From the NCBI RefSeq assembly GCF_009760925.1, contig NZ_VRLV01000003.1:558001-622000 (forward strand): 64,000 nt of DNA, given 5' to 3'. The stretch is from Nonomuraea typhae (GTDB lineage Bacteria > Actinomycetota > Actinomycetes > Streptosporangiales > Streptosporangiaceae). A model generated the notes under the pieces. That model had not been told where the DNA came from, searched no databases, and saw nothing but the letters and a program-made list of their open reading frames with translations. Every line of letters starts with the position of its first letter. Within the stretch, counting starts at the first letter, position 1. Positions 14,990 to 47,119 of the stretch are shown piece by piece. The position numbers and the translations under genes are program-made.

Positions 14990-15880
14990 CTAGCTGAGAA
15001 CCGTCAGGGCGCCCGGCTCGACCCGGCAGGTCACCGGCGCCGCCCCGACCCGCTCGCCGTCGGCGTAGGCCACCACGTCCGGCGCCTCCACCCTGACCTC
15101 GCGCACCCGGTGGACCGAGACCGCCGGGTGCCGGACGTGCGTCCCCTTGTACACCCGCGGGAAGACCCGCACGAACTCCGCCTTGGGCACCGCGCCCAGC
15201 ACCACGACGTCCAGAAGGCCGTCGTCGGGCCGGGCGTCCGGGCTGATGCGCATGCCCGCGCCGTAGGTGCCGGTGTTGGCCACCGAGACCAGCATCGCCT
15301 CGCGCTCCAGCGTCTCCTCGCCGTCCAGCGTCACCCGGAACGGGATCGGCCGGAACGCGCGCAGTTCCGCGGCCAGCGCCACCAGGTACTTCGCCATGCC
15401 GGGCGGCCAGGTCAGCCGGTTGGCCCGCTCGTTGACCCGCGAGTCGAAGCCGCAGCACACCACGCCGGCGAACCACTCCCCGTCCGCGCCCGCCCGCTCG
15501 ATCCAGGCGGCGTCCACGGCCCTCGCGCGCAGGCGCAGCACCGTGTCGGCCGCGGCCAGCTGGTCCTTGACCGGCAGCCCGTAGGCGGCGGCGATGTCGT
15601 TGCCGGTTCCCGCCGGGATGATCCCGAGCGGCACGCCGGTCCCCGCCACCGCCTGCACCGCCAGGTGCACCAGCCCGTCGCCGCCGAAGGCCACCAGCGC
15701 GTCCGGGCGTTCGGCGGCAGCCGTACACGCTCGCTCCAGGGCGTCGGCGGCGTCGTCGCCGACGATCACCGACACCTCGGCGCCCCCGTCGCGCAGGCGG
15801 CGCACCACCGGCTCCAGCAGGCGCAGCGTCCGGCCCCCGCGGGCGGCCGGATTGACGAGCAGGGCGAGATGCGAGGACAT
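14990..15880 (-). CDS. Diacylglycerol/lipid kinase (DagK family)
   Basis: 296 residues with the DAGK catalytic signature: VNPAARGG at the N terminus, FGGDGLVH (about 64-71) and IPAGTGNDIA (about 88-97) for ATP binding, then the C-terminal beta-sandwich with a late GLLDVVVLG segment. It transfers the ATP gamma-phosphate to a lipid such as diacylglycerol, recycling it to phosphatidic acid at the membrane. Its place upstream of helY on the same strand matches the arrangement I recall from Streptomyces; the tatC gene that would precede it has been displaced by the block 15.9-23.1 kb. Confidence 0.88.
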   Translation of the reverse strand: MSSHLALLVNPAARGGRTLRLLEPVVRRLRDGGAEVSVIVGDDAADALERACTAAAERPDALVAFGGDGLVHLAVQAVAGTGVPLGIIPAGTGNDIAAAYGLPVKDQLAAADTVLRLRARAVDAAWIERAGADGEWFAGVVCCGFDSRVNERANRLTWPPGMAKYLVALAAELRAFRPIPFRVTLDGEETLEREAMLVSVANTGTYGAGMRISPDARPDDGLLDVVVLGAVPKAEFVRVFPRVYKGTHVRHPAVSVHRVREVRVEAPDVVAYADGERVGAAPVTCRVEPGALTVLS

Positions 15881-15907
15881 TCCCGGAACCTATCGGGGAT
15901 CCGGGAA
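15880..15907 (-). terminator. Hairpin after the Xre-like gene
   Basis: TTCCCGGA / TCCGGGAA, an 8-bp perfect stem with a 12-nt loop, lies 10 bp past the stop of the Xre-like gene and overlaps the diacylglycerol kinase start codon. A terminator or a translation-modulating structure is possible. Confidence 0.4.
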
Positions 15908-15917
15908 GGGTGCCAGA

Positions 15918-16670
15918 TCAGCCACTGGGTGTGGGCCTGGGCACCTCGACCACCTTCGTGGTCGAACTCACCAGGCCCTCGCCCATGATCACCTGCCCGT
16001 CGTCGCTCTTGGTCACCTCGAAGTGGTGCATCCCGGGCGCCACCCCGGTCCAGGTGTAGCGCTGCCAGCGGCCGCAGTCGTACCCGACCCGCTCGCCGCC
16101 CGGCTGCAGGGCGATCGCGTAGGAGGTGACGCCCCGCGGGCAGGACATGTTCGCCCAGATCTCCACGTTGCCCGGTTCCGCCATAGTCCAGCGGCGCGAC
16201 GGCAGCCGCACGGTCAGGTGCTCGATCGTCCAGCGGAACCCCTGCCCGGCCACCGGCTCCGGCGGAGGGGCCGCCGTGGCCTGCGGGGTGCGATCCACCG
16301 TCGCCAGCCACACCACGCCCGCCACCAGCAGGACGGCCGGCGCCAGGGCGTAGGCCCACCATCGGCGACGGCGCGGTGCCGGCGGATCCTCCGGCTGTTC
16401 CCGGCTCTGCGCCGCCTCGGCCTGCCGCCACTGCTCCTCCCACGGCCCCGGCTCCTGCCCGCAGGCCGTCACGTACGCCGTCACGAAGTCGAGCGGGGGC
16501 AACTCCTCCGGGCTCAGCCTCCGGGAGACCGTACTGGAGTGGTAGCCCATGCGGCGGCCCACCTCTTCCAGCGACAGCTGCCCGCGCAGCCGCCGGAGGT
16601 CGTCGATCAGCTCGGCCACCGGTCCCGCCGTCCGGTCGATGGGGCGGTCCTTCCGTCCTCCGCGCGCCAC
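15918..16670 (-). CDS. Membrane-anchored Xre-family helix-turn-helix protein
   Basis: 250 residues: a cytoplasmic helix-turn-helix of the Xre/HTH_31 type (about 18-75, LSLEEVGRRMGYHSSTVSRRLS), an acidic linker and RRRRWW stop-transfer cluster, one transmembrane helix (about 106-124) and an outside domain of about 120 residues with two cysteines (SCPRG, YDCGRW) that may form a disulphide. This one-pass layout resembles RodZ-like or anti-sigma-style sensors, but no family was recognised for the outer domain. It is divergent from the 13-codon ORF and MerR gene. Confidence 0.7.
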   Translation of the reverse strand: MARGGRKDRPIDRTAGPVAELIDDLRRLRGQLSLEEVGRRMGYHSSTVSRRLSPEELPPLDFVTAYVTACGQEPGPWEEQWRQAEAAQSREQPEDPPAPRRRRWWAYALAPAVLLVAGVVWLATVDRTPQATAAPPPEPVAGQGFRWTIEHLTVRLPSRRWTMAEPGNVEIWANMSCPRGVTSYAIALQPGGERVGYDCGRWQRYTWTGVAPGMHHFEVTKSDDGQVIMGEGLVSSTTKVVEVPRPTPSG

Positions 16671-16803
16671 GCCTGCCTCCTACGGATGCCCGGGCCATTG
16701 CGGATGTTGCTGCCTTTCTTGCGCAACACCGGCGCCCGCCAAACTACCCGGCTCAGAGGAAGGATCGACTCCGTCCGGCATCTCTCATGAAGGAGGGCGA
16801 CAC

Positions 16804-16845
16804 ATGCACACCTTTTCCGACGGGGTCGGCTGGGGCGGCGCCTGA
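16804..16845 (+). CDS. 13-codon ORF with strong ribosome-binding site (peptide or leader)
   Basis: ATG at 16804 is preceded by AAGGAGG seven bases upstream, one of the best ribosome-binding sites in the window. It encodes MHTFSDGVGWGGA and stops at TGA two bases before a 15-bp perfect hairpin. It could be a tiny structural gene or a leader peptide upstream of merR. No matching family is known to me, and there is no run of regulatory codons. Confidence 0.4.
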   Translation: MHTFSDGVGWGGA

Positions 16846-16846
16846 G

Positions 16847-16895
16847 TCCCCGCCCCGGCTCCCTCGCACGGGGGCGGAGAGAGCCGGGGCGGGGA
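16847..16895 (+). terminator. Strong hairpin between the 13-codon ORF and merR
   Basis: TCCCCGCCCCGGCTC / GAGCCGGGGCGGGGA form a perfect 15-bp stem with a 19-nt loop. It begins one base after the 13-codon ORF stop and ends 50 bp before merR, so it can end the mini-gene transcript or act as an attenuator. Confidence 0.7.
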
Positions 16896-16945
16896 TCGCG
16901 GCGGATCGCTTGAGCGCGCCCGCCGCCGTGCAGGTTAATGTGAAC

Positions 16946-17356
16946 ATGAAGTCACGCGAGCGGATCACCATCGGGGAACTGGCCGAGCGGTTCGGCCTGG
17001 CCACCCACGTGCTGCGGCATTGGGAGACCATGGGCCTGCTGGAACCCGCGCGGCAGACGGGCGGCCAGCGCACCTACGAGCAGACCGACCTCGAGCGGGT
17101 GGCGGTCATCCTCATGGGCAAGGAGGCCGGGTTCACGCTGGGGCAGCTGCGGATGCTGCTGTCGGCGCCACACAACCCGATGCGGCACCGCCCGCTCCTT
17201 CAGGAGCACGTGCGGGAGCTGGAACATCGCATCGCGCAGGCGCAGGCGGCCAAGACCCTCATCGAGCACGCGCTGGCCTGCCCGCACAGCTTCGCCGAGT
17301 GCGAGCACGCCCGCGAGCAGATCGCCGCCCGCATCCCGCCCGCTCCCGAAGGCTAG
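16946..17356 (+). CDS. MerR-family transcriptional regulator
   Basis: 136 residues with the MerR opening ITIGELAERFGLATHVLRHWETMGLL, a wing (RTYEQTDLERVAVI) and the long dimerisation helix, then a short C-terminal tail with the metal- or thiol-like cluster CPHSFAECEH. Function of the tail is unknown. There is no ribosome-binding site before the ATG at 16946; a TTGAGC (16910) and TTAATG (16935) pair with the 19-bp spacing typical of MerR-controlled promoters ends five bases before it, which would fit a leaderless, self-regulated transcript. Its TAG stop overlaps the stop codon of the convergent LysR gene. Confidence 0.85.
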   Translation: MKSRERITIGELAERFGLATHVLRHWETMGLLEPARQTGGQRTYEQTDLERVAVILMGKEAGFTLGQLRMLLSAPHNPMRHRPLLQEHVRELEHRIAQAQAAKTLIEHALACPHSFAECEHAREQIAARIPPAPEG

Positions 17357-18297
17357 GCGGACTGGCTCGCCTCCGGTTCGGGGAACCAGGCCCCGGCGGG
17401 CGCCGTGAGCCAGTCGCCGGCCTCGGCCAGATCGTCCAGGGCCCGGTGCAGGGCGCGCAGCCCGGGGTGCTCGCCGTCCGTGCGCCAGATCATCACCCAG
17501 GGGAAGATCGCGACCGGGTCCACGAGGGGCCGCAGCACCGCGCCGGGGATGGCCGGCTGGGTGGCCAGGGTGAGGATGGGGGCGTCGCGGTCGCGGATGT
17601 GCTGGGCGAGCTCGTCGCCGCCCCGCACGTGCGGATGGGCCAGGCCGGGGTCGACGCCGAAGGGCGCGAGAAGCTGCAGCACCGCGTGTTCCCACCCGGG
17701 CGTGGCGTGGTCGCCCGCGCGGATGCACGGGCTCGTGTCCCGCAACGACTCCAGAGGTACGGCGGGCAGCCCGGCGAGCCGGTGCCGCTCGGGGACCAGG
17801 ACCGCGACCCGCTCGTGGCGGACCGGGCGCTGCCGTACGCCGTCGAGGAGGCCGGGGCTGCGGCCGAACGTCACGTCCAGGCGGCCGTCCAGGAGCAGCG
17901 AGGCGGCCGTCTCCGTGCCGGTGTGGAAGCGGGCGAAGAACTCCACGCCGGGCGCGTGCCCGCGGGCGGCGGCCAGGACCAGCGCCGGGGTGAGGCCGGC
18001 GCCCACGACGTCGACGGTCAGCGACCGGGGCTGGCCGCGCAGCTCCAGCATCGTCGTGTCGTACAGCGCGAGGATCTCCCGTGCCCGGGTCAGCAGGAGC
18101 CTGCCCTCCGGGGTGAGCGTGACCTTGCGGGTCGTGCGTTCCAGCAGGCGGCGGCCGACCCGGTCCTCCAGCCGCCGGACGTCGCGGCTGAGCGCCTGCT
18201 GCGCCACGAACAGGCGCTGGGCGGCGCGGCTGAAGTGAAGCTCGTCGGCGACGGTCACGTAGTGGCGAAGGAGCCGGATTTCCACGTCGTCTGGCAC
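17353..18297 (-). CDS. LysR-family transcriptional regulator
   Basis: 314 residues with an N-terminal LysR helix-turn-helix (FSRAAQRLFVAQQALSRDVRRLEDRVGRRLLER) and an effector-binding domain (about 92-300). It is divergent from the MFS transporter at 18390 with about 90 bp between them, so it probably controls that transporter and perhaps the maleylpyruvate-isomerase-family gene behind it. Its stop codon overlaps the merR stop within CTAG. Ligand unknown. Confidence 0.9.
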   Translation of the reverse strand: MPDDVEIRLLRHYVTVADELHFSRAAQRLFVAQQALSRDVRRLEDRVGRRLLERTTRKVTLTPEGRLLLTRAREILALYDTTMLELRGQPRSLTVDVVGAGLTPALVLAAARGHAPGVEFFARFHTGTETAASLLLDGRLDVTFGRSPGLLDGVRQRPVRHERVAVLVPERHRLAGLPAVPLESLRDTSPCIRAGDHATPGWEHAVLQLLAPFGVDPGLAHPHVRGGDELAQHIRDRDAPILTLATQPAIPGAVLRPLVDPVAIFPWVMIWRTDGEHPGLRALHRALDDLAEAGDWLTAPAGAWFPEPEASQSA

Positions 18298-18389
18298 ACC
18301 CTCTTCCTACCCGATTAACACAGCCGACGCGTGAATCGCGTTCGAACAGGTGTTGGACCCCGGGCCGGGGCCGCCACCAGGATCGGGGC

Positions 18390-19703
18390 ATGGCCGGACG
18401 AGGAACGATCATGCTTGCCTACGGGCTGACCGGCGTCGTGAACGCGGTCTGGGGCGCCACGCTCCCCGCCACCGACGCGCGCCTGGAACTCGGGCCGGGG
18501 CGACTCGGCGGGCTGCTCATGGCCCTGGCCGCCGGCGCGCTCGTGGCCATGCCGGTGGCCGGGTGGCTGGCCGACCGGTGGGGCGGGCAGCGCCTGCTGC
18601 GGGCCTGCGCTCCGGCGGCGGCCCTGGCCCTGGCGGGCCCGGCGCTGGCCACCGGACCGGAGGCGCTGGTGGCCGCCGCCGTGGTGCTGGGGGTTCTGTT
18701 CGGGCTGCTCAACGTGGCCCTGAGCGTCCAGGCGGCGGCCGCCGAACGGGCGCTGGGCCGGCCGGTCATGGCGACGGTGCACGGCACGTGGACGCTCGGG
18801 GCGGTGGCGGGCGGCGCGGCCATCACGGCGTCGTTGCGCGCCGGCGCGGACGTGCGCCTGCTCATGGCCGCGGGCGCCGCCACCTTGGCCCTCGCCATGG
18901 CCCTCGCCTTGGCCGCCGGCAAACCCACCCCACCCGGAAACCCCCACCGATCCGGATATGTCCCCCACGCCGCCCACGCCGCCCAGCCCGGCCAACCCAG
19001 CCAGCCCGGCCAACCCAGCCAGACCGGCCAGACCGGCCAGACCGGCCAGACCGGCCACCACGATCTTCCTGGCCAATCCGACCGGAAGGGCCGGGACGGC
19101 CCGCGGGTGGGGCGGCCGTGGGTCATGGTGATGCTGGGGGTGATCGGCGCGGCGGCCTTCGTCACCGAGGGCGCCGCCACCGACTGGGCCGGGGTGCACG
19201 CGACCCGCGTCCTGGGCGCCGACCCGGCCACCGGGTCGCTGGTGTACACCGTCTTCTTCGTGGCGATGACGGCGGTGCGCTTCGTCGGCGACGCCGTACG
19301 GACCGCGCTCGGCGTCGTCACCACCATCCTGCTGGCCGGCACGACCGCCACCGCGGGCTACGCCCTCGTCCTCCTGTCGGGCTTCCTGCCCGCGGCGAAC
19401 GCGGCGAACGCGGCGAACGGGGCGAGCGCGGCGGTGGCCTGCGCCGTGGCCGGCTGGGCGCTGGCCGGCGCCGGCATGGCCGTGGTGTGGCCGATCGTGG
19501 CGAGTCTCCTGGGCGCCTCAGACGGGGCCGCCCGCCGCCTGTCCGCGGTCACGACCGTCAGCTACGGCGGCGGCCTGATCGGGCCCGCCCTCATCGGCTA
19601 CGTCGCGACCACGGCCACGCTCCCCCTCGCCCTGCTGATCCCGGCGGCGCTGGCGCTCCTCGTGGCCACAGTCGCACCACCCCTGATCAAAGCCGCTTCC
19701 TAA
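18390..19703 (+). CDS. MFS transporter with a repeat-expanded central loop
   Basis: 437 residues, about twelve hydrophobic helices in two bundles. The first bundle ends near residue 172; the second begins with VMVMLGVIGAAAFVTEGAATDWAGVH (about 245), a segment typical of the subfamily of sugar/quorum-molecule-like MFS carriers annotated YbjJ. The central cytoplasmic loop carries an imperfect Gln/Pro/Gly/Ser/Thr repeat encoded by a 72-bp minisatellite. A second short repeat (three Ala-Ala-Asn units) occurs near residue 335. It is probably an exporter of an unknown small molecule, controlled by the divergent LysR regulator. Confidence 0.82.
   Translation: MAGRGTIMLAYGLTGVVNAVWGATLPATDARLELGPGRLGGLLMALAAGALVAMPVAGWLADRWGGQRLLRACAPAAALALAGPALATGPEALVAAAVVLGVLFGLLNVALSVQAAAAERALGRPVMATVHGTWTLGAVAGGAAITASLRAGADVRLLMAAGAATLALAMALALAAGKPTPPGNPHRSGYVPHAAHAAQPGQPSQPGQPSQTGQTGQTGQTGHHDLPGQSDRKGRDGPRVGRPWVMVMLGVIGAAAFVTEGAATDWAGVHATRVLGADPATGSLVYTVFFVAMTAVRFVGDAVRTALGVVTTILLAGTTATAGYALVLLSGFLPAANAANAANGASAAVACAVAGWALAGAGMAVVWPIVASLLGASDGAARRLSAVTTVSYGGGLIGPALIGYVATTATLPLALLIPAALALLVATVAPPLIKAAS
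18984..19055 (+). repeat. In-frame minisatellite inside the MFS gene
   Basis: Two exact copies of an 18-bp unit (CAGCCCGGCCAACCCAGC) are followed by four exact copies of the 9-bp unit CAGACCGGC. The repeat keeps frame and encodes a Gln-Pro-Gly/Ser then Gln-Thr-Gly series in a cytoplasmic loop. Unit lengths divisible by three allow expansion without frameshift. Confidence 0.9.
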
Positions 19704-19722
19704 CCTCATCCGGAGACGCATC

Positions 19723-20355
19723 ATGCCCCGTGTAGCCATGGTTCCCGACGTGGAAGCCGAACGACTCAGCCTGGCCGGCCTCCTCGGCACGCTCACCCGC
19801 GACGAGTGGGCGGCGCCGTCGCTGTGCCCGGGCTGGAGCGTGCGCGACGTGGTCGCCCATCTCACGCTCGCCGACCGCGAGTTCACCCGTACGGCACTGC
19901 GCGTGCTACGGGCCCGCGGCGACTTCGACCGGGTCACCGGCGACATGGCCAGAGAGCGCGCCCGGAAGTACTCCCCGGCCGAGCTCGTGGCCCAGTTCCG
20001 GGAGACCGCCGGCCGGCCGCGCCGCTTCCCGATGAGCGGCGCGCTGGATCCGCTGACCGACATCCTGGTGCACGCCCAGGACATCGCCCGCCCCCTGGGC
20101 CGGGACCACCCCATGCCCCTCGACCGGGCGCTGCCCGCGCTGCACCACGTGTGGAGCAGCGTCTTCTACGGCACCCGCAAGCGCTTCACCGGCCTCCGCC
20201 TGAGCGCCACCGACGCCGCCTGGAGCGCGGGCGACGGGCCGCTCACCATCCGCGGGCCCGTCGCCGGCCTGCTCCTTCTGTCCACGGGACGGCGGGCGGC
20301 GCTGCCCGGCCTGACCGGAGACGGCCTGCGCGAGGCCACGGCCAGACTCGGGTAG
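19723..20355 (+). CDS. Maleylpyruvate isomerase/DinB-family mycothiol-dependent enzyme
   Basis: 210 residues with the four-helix DinB/MDMPI fold: LCPGWSVRDVVAHLTLAD (about 35-52, first metal His), then DILVHAQDIARPLG (about 111-124, second His in a His-x-x-Asp-Ile pattern). Family members use a bound metal and mycothiol as thiol cofactor for isomerisation or transfer reactions. It begins 20 bases after the MFS transporter and 44 bases before the lanthipeptide synthetase, all on the plus strand, so these genes may be co-transcribed. Substrate unknown. Confidence 0.8.
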   Translation: MPRVAMVPDVEAERLSLAGLLGTLTRDEWAAPSLCPGWSVRDVVAHLTLADREFTRTALRVLRARGDFDRVTGDMARERARKYSPAELVAQFRETAGRPRRFPMSGALDPLTDILVHAQDIARPLGRDHPMPLDRALPALHHVWSSVFYGTRKRFTGLRLSATDAAWSAGDGPLTIRGPVAGLLLLSTGRRAALPGLTGDGLREATARLG

Positions 20356-20398
20356 ACCCAGAACTGCCGGGTTTACAGGGCGGGATCGCCGGAGTCTG

Positions 20399-22936
20399 AT
20401 GGAGGACGGGCTTCCCCGGGAGGCGATCGTGCGCTACGAACAGTTCTCCTTCACGGATCCGGTCTTCTACGACCTGCCGTCCCGCTCACCCCTGGCGCAC
20501 CACCGCTACGCCCCGGACCGCCCGGTCCCCGCCGGGTGGCACCGGGAGCGCCGCGACGTGTGGACCGCCCTGACCCCCTCCGGCCGGGCGCTCCCGCGGC
20601 AGGGCTGGAAGATCCACGTCTCGGCCACCGCGGACAGCGCCGGCAAGGCCGTGGACGCCGTCTGGGACTACTGCGTCCCCCGCACGATCGCCTTCAAGTT
20701 CCTGACCGACCACTCCGGCTTCCACGTGCGCAACGGCAAGAACGCCGAACGCGGCGGCAGCGGCAAACTCATCACCGTCTACCCGGCGGACTCCGAGCTG
20801 GAACCGGCCCTGACCCGCCTGGCCGCCGAGCTCCACGGCGTGAAGGGCCCCTACATCCTCTCCGACGTCCGCTGGCAGGACGGCCCTCTGTACGTGCGCT
20901 ACGGCGGCTTCACCGAACGCCACTGCTTCGACGAGCGCGGCGAACGGGTGCCGGCCATCGAGACCCCGGACGGCCTCCTGGTGCCCGACCGGCGCGAACC
21001 CGGCTTCGCCGTACCGGACTGGGTGGAGGTCCCGGCCTTCCTGGAACCCAGCGTGAAGGCCCGCCGCGAGCCCGACACCCCGCACGAGCTCCCCTTCCGC
21101 ATCGAACGGCCGCTGCACTTCTCCAACGGCGGCGGCGTCTACCTGGCCGAGGACCTGCGGTCCGGCCGGCGTGTGGTGGTGAAGGAGGCCCGCCCGTTCG
21201 CCGGTCTGGACGCCGCCGGGCGCGACGCCGTGCAACGCCTGCGCCACGAGCGTGCCTTCCTGGACCGGCTGCGCGGCACCGGCACCGTGCCCGAGTTGTA
21301 TGACTACCTCACGTGCTGGGAGCACGAGTTCCTGGTCGAGGAGTACATCGAGGGCGAATCCCTGCTCAGCGTGATGACCCGCACCTATCCCCTGATCCAC
21401 GCCGACCCGGCCGGGCACGAGGTGGCCGCATACGCCCGCTGGGCGCTCGGCGTGCTGGCGCGGGTCTCGGCCGCGATCCGCGCCCTGCACGGGTACGGCG
21501 TGGCCATCGGCGACCTGCATCCGCGCAACATCCTGGTGCGGCCGGACGGTCAGATCAGGTTCGTCGACCTGGAGGTCGCCTCGCTCGCCGGGGACAGGAC
21601 GACGGCCGTCCTGGGCGCACCCGGGTACGCGGCCCCGGACGGCCGCGGCGGGGCGGACGCCGACCGGTACGCGGTGGCGTGCCTGTATCTGAGCATGTTC
21701 CTGCCGCTGACGGCCCTGCTCCCGCTGGCCCCCGGCAAGGCCGCCGTGCTGGCGGACGCCGCCGCGGAGCGGTTCGGCCTCGACCGCGCGCTGCTGGACG
21801 AGCCGGTGCGCGAGCTGAGCACGGGACAACACCACCCGCACCTGGCCGCGCCCCCGGAAACCGGCACGCTCGACTGGCCCGCGCTGCGCGCCTCCCTGAG
21901 CCGGGCCATCCTCGCCTCGGCCACCCCCGAGCGCACCGACCGGCTCTTCCCCGGCGACATCGAGCAGTTCTCCGCCAACGGCCTCGGCCTGGCCCACGGC
22001 GCCGCCGGAGTCCTGCACGCGCTGCGCCTGACCGGCCACGAGCGCCTGCCCGAGCACGAGGAGTGGCTGCTGGAAGGGGTACGGCAGCGCCGCCACCACA
22101 GTTGCCTCGGCCTCTACGACGGCCTGCACGGCATCGCCTACACCCTGGAGGAACTGGGCAGGCGGGACGACGCGCTGGCCGTGCTGGGCAAGGTGAAGGA
22201 CGTCTCCCTGGACCTGCTGCCGGCCGGCCTGTACGACGGCCTGGCCGGGGCCGGGCTCAACCTGCTGCACTTCGCCGGCCGTACCGGGGACGAGTCGCTG
22301 CGCGAGCGGGCCGTCGCGGCGGGTCTGGAACTGGCCCGGCGGTGGGAGAGCGCGCGCTACCGCCCCGGCCTCCTCTACGGCCCGTCGGGGCAGGCGCTGC
22401 TGCACGTGCGGCTGTTCGAGGCCACCGGCGACCCGGTCTTCCTCGGCCACGCCGCCACCGCCCTGCGTGCGGACCTCGCCGTCTGCGCCACGCTGCCCGA
22501 CGGCAGCCTGCAGGTCGACGAGGGCTGGCGCATGATGCCGTACCTGGCCACCGGCAGCGTGGGCATCGGCACGGTCCTGGCCGAGTACCTGCGCCACCGG
22601 GAGGACGCGGCCTTCGCCGGCGCCCTGGCCGCGATCCGGCGCGCGGCCCGGGCCGAGTTCGTCATCGGCTCCGGCCTGATGAACGGCAGGGCCGGATTCA
22701 TCGCCTTCCTGGCCCATCCGCGTGACCCGGAGCTCCTCGACCTGCACCTGCGCCGCCTGTCGTGGCATCTGCTGGCCTACCGGGGGCATGCCGCCTTCCC
22801 CGGCGACCAGCTGATGCGGCTGTCCATGGACCTGGCCACCGGCAGCGCGGGAATCCTGGCCGCGCTGAGCGCGGCCTTCGACGGCACGCCCGTTCTGCCC
22901 TTCCTCACCGGCTCAGAAAGGACACGATCGGCATGA
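20399..22936 (+). CDS. Class III lanthionine synthetase (LanKC, RamC/AmfT-like)
   Basis: 845 residues in three parts. An N-terminal phosphothreonine/serine-lyase-like domain (about 1-215, opening RYEQFSFTDPVFYDLP) precedes a Ser/Thr kinase domain (about 235-500, VVVKEARPF lysine, GVAIGDLHPRNIL catalytic loop, VDLEVA metal motif) and a LanC-like cyclase (about 530-845). The cyclase has no Cys-Cys-His zinc site, which puts it in class III rather than IV. It phosphorylates and eliminates Ser/Thr in a precursor and adds Cys to form lanthionine or labionin. The next gene overlaps it by ATGA and encodes the precursor. GTG at 20429 (GGGAGG five bases upstream) is an alternative start. Confidence 0.93.
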   Translation: MEDGLPREAIVRYEQFSFTDPVFYDLPSRSPLAHHRYAPDRPVPAGWHRERRDVWTALTPSGRALPRQGWKIHVSATADSAGKAVDAVWDYCVPRTIAFKFLTDHSGFHVRNGKNAERGGSGKLITVYPADSELEPALTRLAAELHGVKGPYILSDVRWQDGPLYVRYGGFTERHCFDERGERVPAIETPDGLLVPDRREPGFAVPDWVEVPAFLEPSVKARREPDTPHELPFRIERPLHFSNGGGVYLAEDLRSGRRVVVKEARPFAGLDAAGRDAVQRLRHERAFLDRLRGTGTVPELYDYLTCWEHEFLVEEYIEGESLLSVMTRTYPLIHADPAGHEVAAYARWALGVLARVSAAIRALHGYGVAIGDLHPRNILVRPDGQIRFVDLEVASLAGDRTTAVLGAPGYAAPDGRGGADADRYAVACLYLSMFLPLTALLPLAPGKAAVLADAAAERFGLDRALLDEPVRELSTGQHHPHLAAPPETGTLDWPALRASLSRAILASATPERTDRLFPGDIEQFSANGLGLAHGAAGVLHALRLTGHERLPEHEEWLLEGVRQRRHHSCLGLYDGLHGIAYTLEELGRRDDALAVLGKVKDVSLDLLPAGLYDGLAGAGLNLLHFAGRTGDESLRERAVAAGLELARRWESARYRPGLLYGPSGQALLHVRLFEATGDPVFLGHAATALRADLAVCATLPDGSLQVDEGWRMMPYLATGSVGIGTVLAEYLRHREDAAFAGALAAIRRAARAEFVIGSGLMNGRAGFIAFLAHPRDPELLDLHLRRLSWHLLAYRGHAAFPGDQLMRLSMDLATGSAGILAALSAAFDGTPVLPFLTGSERTRSA

Positions 22937-23085
22937 CTCACGTGCTCGACCTGCAACGGCTCACGAACCCGGACGCCGACGCCGAGAGGGCGGTGGCCGG
23001 CAACAGCAGCATCAGCTTCACCCTCTGCGGCGACAGCAGCACCTTGAGCGTGCTGCTGTGCCACGGCTGCCACTGCCCGCACTAG
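22933..23085 (+). CDS. SapB/AmfS-like class III lanthipeptide precursor
   Basis: A 50-residue peptide whose ATG overlaps the synthetase stop (ATGA), so translation is coupled. The leader has the class III recognition motif VLDLQRL (residues 4-10). The core holds two Ser-x-x-Ser-x-x-x-Cys units, Ser25-Ser28-Cys32 and Ser36-Ser39-Cys43, joined by CGDSS (32-36), the same linker as in SapB from Streptomyces coelicolor. Unlike SapB it goes on for seven more residues, HGCHCPH, adding two Cys and three His. A surfactant-like morphogen is the natural guess for the SapB part; the tail is unexplained. No ABC transporter (ramA/ramB type) or RamR is nearby. Confidence 0.85.
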   Translation: MTHVLDLQRLTNPDADAERAVAGNSSISFTLCGDSSTLSVLLCHGCHCPH

Positions 23086-23214
23086 GGGCCCTCGGTGGGG
23101 GCCCGCCTCACCCCGGGGCGTGGCCCTTCACCCGTCACCGATGCAGCACCGTCGCCCGGGCGGACAGACGCACCGCCCGGACACCACCCATGCCGCGGCC
23201 AAGGGGGCGGGCGG

Positions 23215-24111
23215 TCACCGGGAGTCGGGGCCGGTCTCCAGGTCGACCGGCGTGTCCAGGTCGGCCGAGGTTTGCAGGTCGAGCGGGGACTCCTGGTCGT
23301 CGTCCAGGCCGGTGTACTCATCCTCCGCCGGCAGGCGCCTCTCGCGGATGTACATCACCAGCTCAGCCACCCCGAACAGGACCACCATGGGCACGCTCAG
23401 CGCGAGCATCGTGAAGATGTCGCCGCCGGGCGTGATGACGGCGCTGAACACGAACAGCAAGAAGATGATCATGCGGCGGTGCTTGGCCAGCGTCGACCGC
23501 GGCAGCACGCCGATGATGTTCAGGAAGACCATGAGCAGCGGCACCTCGAACGAGATGCCGAACACCAGCAGCATGATCACCCAGTAGCTGAGGTACTCGT
23601 CCATCTCGATGAGCGGCACCGCGCTGGCGGGCATGAAGCTCAGCAGGAAACCGAGGCCGGTGTCCATCAGGAAGTAGGCGAAGGCGGCGCCGCCGATGAA
23701 CAGCGGGATCGCGATCGACATGAAGACGACGGTGTGCTTCTTCTCGTTCCGGTACAGGGCCGGGGTGACGAACCGCCACACCTGGAACAGCCACACCGGA
23801 GACGAGGCGACCACGCCGACCAGCGCCGCGACCTTGAGGTTGACGAAGAACGACTCGAAGACGCCCCGCACCGCGAAGGTGCACTCGGGCCGCACGGCCT
23901 TGGATGCCTCGAGCGAGCAGTACGGCTCGGACATGAACTTCCACACCGGGTCGAAGAAGATCAACCCGACGACCGTCGCCACCGCAAGGGCCAGTACGGA
24001 GATGACGACGCGGTTGCGCAGCTCACGGAGGTGATCCATGAGCGGCATACGCCCCTCGGGGTCGGGAGGTGTTTCCGCGCCCCCGGGCCTCGTCCGTTTG
24101 AGCAGCGCCAT
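23215..24111 (-). CDS. tatC: Sec-independent protein translocase subunit TatC
   Basis: 298 residues with six membrane helices and the TatC hallmarks: MPLMDHLRELRNR near the N terminus (about 22-34), FESFFVNLKVA, SPVWLFQVWRFVTPALY (about 102-118) and FEVPLLMVFL. A longer acidic C-terminal tail of about 45 residues follows helix six. With TatA it moves folded proteins carrying twin-arginine signals such as the one at the left end of this window. It lies 26 bases after tatA. The gene after it is on the opposite strand, where dagK would normally follow. Confidence 0.97.
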   Translation of the reverse strand: MALLKRTRPGGAETPPDPEGRMPLMDHLRELRNRVVISVLALAVATVVGLIFFDPVWKFMSEPYCSLEASKAVRPECTFAVRGVFESFFVNLKVAALVGVVASSPVWLFQVWRFVTPALYRNEKKHTVVFMSIAIPLFIGGAAFAYFLMDTGLGFLLSFMPASAVPLIEMDEYLSYWVIMLLVFGISFEVPLLMVFLNIIGVLPRSTLAKHRRMIIFLLFVFSAVITPGGDIFTMLALSVPMVVLFGVAELVMYIRERRLPAEDEYTGLDDDQESPLDLQTSADLDTPVDLETGPDSR

Positions 24112-37671: not shown

Positions 37672-39288
37672 CTATAGGGACAGGCGCGGCCAATCGGACA
37701 GGTCGCGCAGGAGCTGGCGATCGTGGGTGGCCAGCACGACGGCCGCCTGCGTGGCGCGCAGGGCCTCGGTCAGCTCCTCCACCAGCGCCATCGACAGGTG
37801 GTTGGTCGGCTCGTCCAGGATCACCACCTGCGGGCGGGCGGCCAGCAGCATGGCCAGGTCCAGGCGGCGCTGCTGGCCGATCGACAGCTCGCGCACCGGC
37901 TTGTGCGCGGCCTCGGCGGGCAGCAGGCCGAGCTGGGACAGTCCCACCCGGTCCGGCTCGGCCAGCACGCCCCGGCTGACCGGGCGTGCGGTCGCGGCCT
38001 CGAACACCTCGTAGGCGGGCCGGTGCGACGGCGGCGGCGACTCCTGCCACAGCACCCCGATCCGCCCGCCGCGCTGCACGCTCCCGGCGTCGGGCTCGAG
38101 CGCCCCGGCGAGTACGGCCAGCAGCGTCGATTTCCCGGCGCCGTTGGGACCGGTCACCACGAGCCTCTCGCCGGCGCGCAGGTGCAGCGACTGCGGCGTG
38201 CGCAACCGGTCGCGTACCTCGACGCCGTCGGCGCGCAGCAGCGTCACTCCGGTCGGCGCGGGCAGCGGCGGCGCCTGGAAGCGCATCGGCGGCTTGGGCA
38301 CGTCCAGCACCTGGGCCTCCAGCGCTTCCTGGCGCCGGTGCACGGCCCGGACCAGGGCGGGCGCCCGGGTCGCGCGGGTGTGCTTGCCGGTGCCCTTGTC
38401 GGGGCGCCAGCCGGACTGCAGCCGGTTCTGCGCGGCCGACAGGTCGTCGGCCAGGCGGCGGCGTTCGCTCTGCTGGTCGCGGTAGTCGGACTCCCAGCGT
38501 TCACGCTCGGCCAGGCGGCCCTCGCGGTAGCCGGCGTAGCCGCCGCCGTAGGTACGGGGCAGGCCGTCGCGGGTCGGGTCGAGGTCGAGCACGGTCGTCA
38601 CGACGTCGTCCAGCAGCGCCCGGTCGTGGCTGACCAGCACCACCGCGCCCGGGTGCTCGCGCAGCCTGGCGGTCAGGTACGCCAGCCCGGCGGCGTCGAG
38701 ATGGTTGGTCGGCTCGTCGAGCAGCAGCAGGTCGTGCCCGGCCCCGAGCAGGCAGGCCAGCCTGATGCGGTAACGCTGCCCGACCGACAGGCCGGCCAGC
38801 GGGCGGGTGCGGTCGTCCACGGCGCCGAGCGCGGCCAGCGAGACGTCGACGCGCCGGTCGGCCTCCCAGGCGTCCAGCGATTCGGCGTCGGCCAGCGCGC
38901 GGGCGTAGTCCTCCTCGGCGCCGGGCCGTCCCTCGGCCAGGGCGGCCGTGGCCTCCTCGAAGGCGGCCAGGACCCGCCGGACCCCGGCCAGTTCGACGTC
39001 GATGAGGTCGCCGACGGTCCGGTCGTCACCGACGGGCATCTCCTGGTCGGCCACACCGGCCGTGCCGACGCGGGTGACCTCGCCGGAGTCCGGGACCAGG
39101 GCGCCGGCCAGCACCTGCAGCAGGGTGGTCTTGCCCCGGCCGTTCTCGCCGACCACGCCCAGGCGGTCGCCAGGGGAGACGGTCACGGTGACGCCGTTGA
39201 GCACCTGCCGGCCGCCGCGGACGACGCGGACCTCGGTCGCGGCCAGGTGAGCACGTGCGCGGGCGGGCAGGGAAAGAGCGGTAGACAC
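37672..39288 (-). CDS. ABC-F family ATPase, antibiotic-resistance type
   Basis: 538 residues from a GTG at 39288 with GGAGG four bases upstream. Two ATPase domains are joined by a linker with no membrane part: Walker A GENGRGKTT and GPNGAGKST, signatures LSVGQRYRI and LSIGQQRRL, Walker B LLLLDEPTNHLD and VVILDEPTNHLS. The interdomain linker (about 245-330) is long and basic. Such proteins bind the ribosomal E site and push out bound antibiotics (OleB, VmlR and LmrC types). A very short leader ORF and a hairpin precede it, which is the usual control for resistance ABC-F genes. Confidence 0.88.
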   Translation of the reverse strand: MSTALSLPARARAHLAATEVRVVRGGRQVLNGVTVTVSPGDRLGVVGENGRGKTTLLQVLAGALVPDSGEVTRVGTAGVADQEMPVGDDRTVGDLIDVELAGVRRVLAAFEEATAALAEGRPGAEEDYARALADAESLDAWEADRRVDVSLAALGAVDDRTRPLAGLSVGQRYRIRLACLLGAGHDLLLLDEPTNHLDAAGLAYLTARLREHPGAVVLVSHDRALLDDVVTTVLDLDPTRDGLPRTYGGGYAGYREGRLAERERWESDYRDQQSERRRLADDLSAAQNRLQSGWRPDKGTGKHTRATRAPALVRAVHRRQEALEAQVLDVPKPPMRFQAPPLPAPTGVTLLRADGVEVRDRLRTPQSLHLRAGERLVVTGPNGAGKSTLLAVLAGALEPDAGSVQRGGRIGVLWQESPPPSHRPAYEVFEAATARPVSRGVLAEPDRVGLSQLGLLPAEAAHKPVRELSIGQQRRLDLAMLLAARPQVVILDEPTNHLSMALVEELTEALRATQAAVVLATHDRQLLRDLSDWPRLSL

Positions 39289-39302
39289 GCTTCCTCCAAG
39301 AG

Positions 39303-39320
39303 GCGGGGTGGAAACCCCGC
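39303..39320 (-). promoter_or_regulatory. Hairpin before the ABC-F start codon
   Basis: GCGGGGT / ACCCCGC, a 7-bp stem with a 4-nt loop, lies between the leader peptide ORF and the ABC-F ribosome-binding site. It could be the anti-antiterminator or a terminator arm of an attenuator. Confidence 0.45.
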
Positions 39321-39411
39321 AAAGAAACGGACGGCGGATGCGCCTCGCCGCGCCCGGGGCCGCATCGTGGGCCTGCATCGGGCGTAGTCGGGGGCTCGGC
39401 GCCGTCCCCTC

Positions 39412-46075: not shown

Positions 46076-46079
<4 letters not shown>
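46008..46079 (+). CDS. 23-codon ORF coupled between permease and ATPase genes
   Basis: ATG at 46008 overlaps the permease stop (ATGA), and its own TGA at 46077 overlaps the GTG of the ATPase gene (GTGA). It encodes MTEPVEVIMRRSILITASTE and three more residues. It bridges the two genes for ribosomes and may serve as a translational relay rather than a functional peptide. No family recognised. Confidence 0.45.

Positions 46080-47119
<1,040 letters not shown>

Follow-up and report, generated by a model that had tools for sequence, protein, structure and literature searches.

A SapB-like class III lanthipeptide pair with a Cys/His tail and no adjoining exporter, set between tatC and dagK of Nonomuraea typhae

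In a 64,000-nucleotide stretch of the Nonomuraea typhae genome (hereafter the window: NCBI RefSeq assembly GCF_009760925.1, contig NZ_VRLV01000003.1, positions 558,001 to 622,000 of the forward strand), a gene for a class III lanthipeptide synthetase (LanKC) overlaps a gene for a SapB-like precursor peptide (LanA), and the pair lies between tatC and dagK with no ram-type exporter or response regulator beside it. We judge it fairly probable that these two genes form a functional class III lanthipeptide module that has been relocated, whose product would be exported and trimmed in trans by a complete ram-like cluster on another contig of the same genome (C54) and would serve a SapB-like role. 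What is new relative to the SapB/AmfS kind, and notable, is a minimal relocated module together with a Cys/His tail on the precursor.

The synthetase, its precursor and the CHGCHC tail

The original prediction, drawn from the sequence alone, was of a class III synthetase with an ATGA-coupled precursor of the SapB/AmfS type, and profile searches confirmed both. The 845-codon frame at 20399-22936(+) matched the class III LanKC model NF038151 with 1032.7 bits (cut-off 575) and contains the Pfam domains RamC_N, Pkinase and LANC_like. LanA exceeded the cut-offs of three family models (RamS PF19402, 46.4 bits against 24.3; NF038159, 52.3 against 30; NF033212 SapB_AmfS, 42.9 against 25), and the family scores of both proteins are far above chance level. 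Class IV identity was ruled out for the synthetase, as the class IV model gave 377.5 bits, under its cut-off of 650. Among solved structures, LanKC comes closest to class III LanKC chains, 8sao being one of them. In the alignment to 8sao, which spans residues 50-835 of the 845-aa frame, the motifs VVVKEARP, GDLHPRN and VDLE face VIIKEARP, GDLQPAN and IDFE, and judged by eye the kinase lysine, the Asp/Asn of the catalytic loop and the DFE-type motif are all kept.

LanKC probably starts at GTG 20429 (835 aa) rather than at ATG 20399, because the ATG is not conserved, a 1-nt indel putting it out of frame in the N. endophytica copy described below, and because a GGGAGG-N5-GTG start is common to both species. 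The TTTACA/TCTGAT hexamer pair upstream (Table 1) is a hint only, since its second hexamer fails the rule of our promoter scan.

The start of LanA, whose translation is MTHVLDLQRLTNPDADAERAVAGNSSISFTLCGDSSTLSVLLCHGCHCPH, overlaps the LanKC stop (ATGA). Its leader carries an LxLQ-type motif (VLDLQ) and a proline at position 13. The two Ser-x-x-Ser-x-x-x-Cys units with a CGDSS joint that had been read in its core are indeed present (S25/S28/C32 and S36/S39/C43), the second lying one residue later than in SapB-type cores (CGDSSTLS vs CGDSSLS). Judging from family membership, LanKC would bind the VLDLQ leader, phosphorylate and eliminate core Ser/Thr residues, and close two thioether units (lanthionine or labionin) over the two motifs.

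The CHGCHC tail of LanA had been missed in the original prediction. Seven residues follow the second ring cysteine in the window and five in the N. endophytica homologue, which is 81% identical and ends in CHGCHC, the extra PH occurring only in the window copy; the other SapB-like precursors that we read have 0-2 residues there. LanA thus departs from a core end of at most two residues past this cysteine, which is our own observation on the precursors read and no curated criterion. A six-frame scan of 133 loci found CHGCHC in six, all of them copies of the window/N. endophytica pair. The C-terminus of 28 genus precursors (L013-L040), plus one in L002, is a CH following the ring cysteine, and precursors read from other genera likewise end no more than two residues past it; precursors were read only where the script could pick a short frame, which gave none from L072, L078, L080, L083, L084, L085, L088 and L129. 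No third CHGCHC precursor was found by two-row profile searches of 345 order, 396 phylum and 394 class genomes (overlapping draws; E-value limits 0.01, 0.01 and 0.001, respectively; at most 17-20 candidates scored per genome), although very different cores could escape such searches. Among open-licence PMC papers, the tail string matched only two Fusobacterium papers, apparently in primer text.

Because the family rule assigns Cys43 to the second ring, only Cys46 and Cys48 are predicted to be left free. The tail might form a disulfide, close a third thioether ring with S35 or a further unused Ser, or bind a metal. C-x-x-C-H is the form of haem attachment, and the fit of CHGCH to it is probably coincidental. 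An alternative that we regard as unlikely makes the tail the point of the product: Cys46/Cys48 with His44/His47 would be joined in a disulfide, engaged in a third thioether ring or part of a metal/haem site, yielding a metallophore, a redox-active peptide or a crosslinked coat peptide. In its favour, CHGCHC is identical at the DNA level in the two species despite a synonymous divergence (dS) of 0.66 in LanA, it is confined to this pair among the 133 loci, and one class III lanthipeptide, noursin, is known to bind copper and to contain a histidine crosslink (excerpts of PMC10206099). These arguments are weakened by the fact that only two cysteines are predicted to be free, that the comparison involves just two closely related species, in which six Cys/His/Gly codons offer few synonymous sites, and that the searches made with genes of the insert returned no metal or cytochrome family. 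According to the same excerpts, noursin has a core with one Cys, a labionin and a Thr-to-His crosslink, and its cluster holds a putative transporter and a peptidase. Noursin and the LanKC-Hbt lanthipeptides share with LanA a class III synthetase, a His-containing core and possible metal binding, but LanA has two Cys units and no noursin-like Thr-x-x-His. A noursin-type histidinobutyrine crosslink was rejected, as T30 and T37 of the LanA core have no His at +3.

Table 1 Features of the window around the lanthipeptide pair
Feature	Position	Strand	Basis or remark
LanKC, class III lanthionine synthetase (lyase-kinase-cyclase)	20429..22936	+	NF038151, Pfam domains, alignment to 8sao; frame open back to ATG 20399
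LanA precursor, 50 aa, SapB/RamS family, C-terminal CHGCHCPH	22933..23085	+	PF19402, NF038159, NF033212; N. endophytica homologue
CHGCHCPH codons	23059..23082	+	CHGCHC part identical in both species
TTTACA-N17-TCTGAT, possible weak promoter	20372..20400	+	Hexamers identical in both species, spacer equal at 9/17
DNA block common with N. endophytica L009, 81% identical	20361..23076	+	Similarity stops at both gene-pair edges
Lineage-specific insert between dagK and tatC frames, 7.3 kb	15881..23214		Gap comparison across genus
tatC	23215-24111	-	Pfam; 129 bp from LanA stop
Maleylpyruvate isomerase-family mycothiol-dependent enzyme (TIGR03083)	19723..20355	+	TIGR03083 match
Major facilitator superfamily (MFS) carrier, member of separate LysR-MFS module, unlikely exporter	18390..19703	+	Profile match and genus comparison
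LysR-type regulator, divergent from MFS gene	17353..18297	-	Domain search; LysR-MFS in other genomes
HTH_31-domain protein, dagK end of insert	15918..16670	-	Domain search
dagK	14990-15880	-	Pfam DAGK_cat, YegS_C

A second copy in N. endophytica and the setting between tatC and dagK

A search of related genomes for the same pair, which the original prediction had proposed, returned a close copy in one other of the 54 genus genomes, that of N. endophytica (G015, locus L009). There the pair occupies a different locus, its synthetase is intact and no exporter-type ATP-binding cassette (ABC) frame occurs in the 22.5 kb of the locus, so that the reading of an orphan pair stands. The two LanKCs are 77% identical over the best segment and 77.6% over 835 codons. 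A scan of named genomes with six peptide patterns added two distant loci at 47%, and no close copy was found in the plasmid collection searched, its 44 records with LanKC relatives all being below 60% identity. The DNA common to both species begins 68 bp upstream of the GGGAGG-N5-GTG start and ends in the last LanA codons. Outside it the surroundings are unrelated: the N. endophytica pair is flanked by an opposite-strand MFS/Sugar_tr gene and a beta-lactamase-family gene, and no single empty site corresponding to this locus could be shown, its flanks matching scattered places in the window genome.

We next compared the ratio of non-synonymous (dN) to synonymous divergence between the two species, using the Nei-Gojobori method in our own script. 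LanKC had dN 0.149, dS 0.423 and dN/dS 0.35, and LanA, over 48 codons only, dN 0.119, dS 0.657 and dN/dS 0.18; the corresponding values were 0.106, 0.333 and 0.32 for tatC and 0.098, 0.325 and 0.30 for dagK. Both genes of the pair are under purifying selection. Since their divergence resembles, or somewhat exceeds, that of tatC and dagK, the simplest reading is that the pair was inherited from the common ancestor of the two sister species and relocated in at least one lineage. The module now sits at differing loci in the two Nonomuraea species, with the tatC-dagK site occupied by it only in the window lineage.

The same figures bear on the idea of a silent leftover, in which synthetase and precursor are intact but unused and the exporter was not kept. 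No exporter, ram-type regulator or consensus promoter adjoins the pair, and a close copy is present in only 2 of the 54 genomes, its own included, as might be expected of such a remnant. Both genes, however, are free of stops, their dN/dS is well below 1 in copies that have diverged at least as far as tatC and dagK, and LanKC retains its active-site motifs; we therefore rate a silent leftover as highly improbable.

The placement between tatC and dagK, proposed earlier as an insertion, is borne out as lineage-specific. Homologues of tatC and of dagK were each found in 53 of the 54 genomes, the one missed, G033, being 63% complete, and the two genes share a contig in 52. The gap between them measures 1-319 bp in 50 of these 52, 1,330 bp in N. 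endophytica, where an opposite-strand cytochrome P450 gene occupies it, and 7,340 bp in the window genome, where it holds the HTH_31 protein, LysR, MFS carrier, TIGR03083 enzyme and lanthipeptide pair. The unusual Pup/Tat setting on which the original prediction remarked is thus real as a location beside tatC, but it gives no functional clue, because the N. endophytica pair lies elsewhere. A conserved Tat/Pup link was rejected on that ground and for want of a comparable insert in the 50 genomes. No mobile-element ends clearly bound the insert in a repeat search of 15850-23260 (minimum length 16, seed 11; matches imperfect and mostly GC-rich; integrases and insertion-sequence elements were not searched).

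As a separate observation, two sister species carry different inserts at this junction, six genes in one (window:15881-23214) and the P450 in the other (L053:4937-6115), and it may for that reason be an insertion-prone spot.

The arrangement of the insert also allows a four-gene operon, in which the MFS carrier exports the peptide and the mycothiol-dependent enzyme tailors the peptide or protects the cell. The four genes are indeed co-directional; the first two gaps measure 19 and 43 bp, the second becoming 73 bp when LanKC is counted from 20429, and the ATGA overlap follows. Comparison across the genus speaks against it. The MFS gene has matches at E<=1e-40 in 8 of the 54 genomes, own included, and in the four closest (G015, G009, G047 and G006) it is accompanied by the divergent LysR gene, the 3.5-kb loci being free of any LanKC; in G047 and G006 a relative of the TIGR03083 gene, 43-44% identical, is also close by. 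Neither LysR nor LanKC was matched in the loci of three weaker hits (L115, L117 and L118). In N. endophytica, LysR-MFS lies 323 kb away from the pair, the MFS-type gene upstream of the pair being on the opposite strand with Sugar_tr as its best match, and the DNA common to both species starts just upstream of LanKC. We consider the operon idea very unlikely. Because LysR-MFS recurs in four other genomes without LanKC, the MFS gene has its own history and is an unlikely exporter. The suggestion that it carries the peptide was thus not supported, and it was rejected as a dedicated exporter.

Exporters beside the pair and candidate partners in trans

The original prediction had also stated that ram-type exporters and a ram-type regulator are absent. 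To place this in context, we built an ABC profile from 25 exporter-like frames and ran it, with membrane-segment prediction, over 38 LanKC loci (window, L009, L010, L011, L041-L052, L054, L055 and L091-L110), a non-random sample picked by similarity to the window LanKC or precursor. In 29 of the 38, LanKC has an ABC protein with predicted membrane segments no more than 5 kb away, and in two (L097 and L107) the contig ends soon after LanKC. The remaining seven (window, L009, L043, L049, L050, L051 and L105) have no ABC exporter within 5 kb, in stretches of at least 8.6 kb on each side except for L105, with 6.0 kb on one side; a LanKC without exporter is therefore uncommon yet not unique. Beside the L050 LanKC is a short frame with a sub-threshold DrrA1-3_C match, perhaps a remnant. 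Within the 64-kb window, two ABC frames were found, 37672-39378(-) and 46076-47119(+), both with ABC_tran, the latter also with a TOBE_2 domain, and neither with predicted membrane segments. The window accordingly contains no linked ramAB-type pair with membrane segments, nor does any ABC frame occur in the 22.5 kb of L009. No ramR-type response regulator was found beside the pair, the regulators of the insert being HTH_31 and LysR; genes outside the insert were only partly searched. On these points the original prediction held.

For an exporter encoded elsewhere, which it had offered as a candidate, the window genome provides a concrete one, although its use by the orphan pair is an inference. 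Four long LanKC matches were found in this genome (window, C54, C33 and C6), and a fifth, weaker synthetase match fits the class IV model better. A complete ram-like cluster is present at C54 (L041). It encodes a LanKC that scores 1013.7 bits (NCBIfam), a precursor and a pair of ABC proteins, of which one combines ABC_membrane with ABC_tran and the other has ABC_tran, as well as an S9 prolyl oligopeptidase and a response regulator carrying a LuxR-type domain. Its N. endophytica counterpart, L054, also has an ABC pair. In a LanKC tree of 66 rows (61 different; quick method, midpoint root for drawing only), the C54 LanKC grouped with one from N. endophytica (G015), which speaks for its being the host's own gene. 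The window and N. endophytica LanKCs pair with a support of 100. Their stem is long (0.5) and sets them off both from the ABC-linked group present across the genus and from the SapB-type group of other genera; they fall within a mixed eight-row set (L010, L105, L011/L050, L042/L055) that has several long branches and a weak inner order.

The lack of a linked protease is ordinary in actinobacterial class III clusters, according to excerpts of PMC7268733 and PMC10885120. Class III leaders are often trimmed by proteases unlinked to the cluster, such as AplP-type M1 enzymes, M16 pairs and FlaP, the last an S9 enzyme that cuts after a leader proline (excerpts of PMC10885120 and PMC8960859). Proline 13 of the LanA leader would be compatible with an S9 cut, and the window genome has four M1-family peptidase loci. 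On this basis, the modified peptide, hydrophobic, two-ringed and bearing the Cys/His tail, would depend on genes at other loci for its export and trimming. The ABC pair and the S9 prolyl oligopeptidase of the C54 cluster are the likeliest candidates, and M1 (AplP-type) proteases would finish the N-terminus. Its likeliest role would be that of a SapB-like surface-active peptide of aerial growth, the weakest step of this proposal.

Several points weigh against a functional, relocated module served by the C54 cluster. The window LanKC is 50% identical to that of C54 and belongs to a different deep branch, and the cores differ, so shared exporters would need substrate tolerance; any other transporter could serve the orphan peptide. 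The window genome is listed with 7.09% contamination. With no exporter beside either copy, silence or an intracellular role is possible, and a scan of 19600-23300 for consensus sigma-70 promoters found none. Transfer or independent gain of the pair is a possible alternative origin, relocation resting on two genomes. Finally, past the L009 edge in N. endophytica, genes for SBP_bac_5, BPD_transp_1 and an oligo_HPY ATPase lie 7.6-13 kb downstream of LanKC. A solute-binding protein is the mark of an ABC importer, and because this oligopeptide-type system includes one we read it as of the importer kind, though a role for the pair is still possible.

Genome mining that looks for linked transporters may misjudge such pairs as dead, should the satellite prove to work only with resident exporters. 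Two sister species, each with one canonical cluster and an exporter-less satellite at differing places, offer a natural test case of whether one set of lanthipeptide exporters and leader-removal enzymes can serve several unlinked synthetase-precursor modules, and the conserved CHGCHC tail would let one test whether SapB chemistry extends to a disulfide, a third ring or a metal. A bolder combination, in which the SapB-like lanthipeptide gained with its tail a new chemistry (metal/haem binding or a disulfide surface coat) and the pair is a mobile plug-in module that needs resident ram-type export, strikes us as distinctly unlikely.

Known systems and other synthetase loci

Compared with SapB/AmfS (ramS/amfS, ramC/amfT, ramAB, ramR), the window pair has the same RamS-family x-L-D-L-Q leader, two S-x-x-S-x-x-x-C units and CGDSS linker, and a class III LanKC adjoining the precursor. 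It differs in lacking adjoining ram-type ABC exporters and response regulator, in the second unit being one residue off, in the added CHGCHC(PH) tail and in a LanKC from a separate deep branch. The ram-like cluster that occurs genus-wide in Nonomuraea (C54/L041, and L054 in N. endophytica) likewise combines a class III LanKC with a precursor, there ending in SVLLCH or similar; L041, however, has the two ABC proteins, S9 peptidase and LuxR-type response regulator, and its kind of precursor stops at CH without the GCHC extension of the window LanA. Durhapeptin of S. durhamensis, according to excerpts of PMC13380574, also derives from a SapB/AmfS-family precursor, in which the SxxSxxxC motif occurs twice in tandem, and likewise has a LanKC, but the dur cluster includes a transporter, an ABC-domain protein and a response regulator, whereas no exporter-type ABC protein or ram-type regulator stands beside the window pair. 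Searches of open-licence PMC papers turned up none that describes the window pair in its title or the start of its abstract.

Other loci deserve mention in their own right. A further synthetase-like gene, L005:1501-2736 (C23:10652-11887 of the window genome), is closer to class IV (LanL) than to class III in its lyase-kinase part, as scanned over the matched part. A supported LanKC lineage without ABC exporter comprises L043:6150-12534 (C6 of the window genome), L049 and L051; a precursor pattern search found none nearby, and genes for a SpoIIE-domain protein and an M50 peptidase adjoin LanKC in all three genomes. The LanKC loci L042:6441-15079 and L055 have one ABC exporter and a LanKC common to both species, and L042 also has a Radical_SAM protein, possibly making it a mixed cluster for ribosomally synthesized and post-translationally modified peptides. 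In L105:8202-15405, two tandem LanKC genes, each with its own MSYILDLQ-type precursor, have a gene for a 2OG-Fe(II) oxygenase as neighbour; the 18 kb covered contain no ABC frame, which makes this another exporter-less SapB-like locus of the same family.

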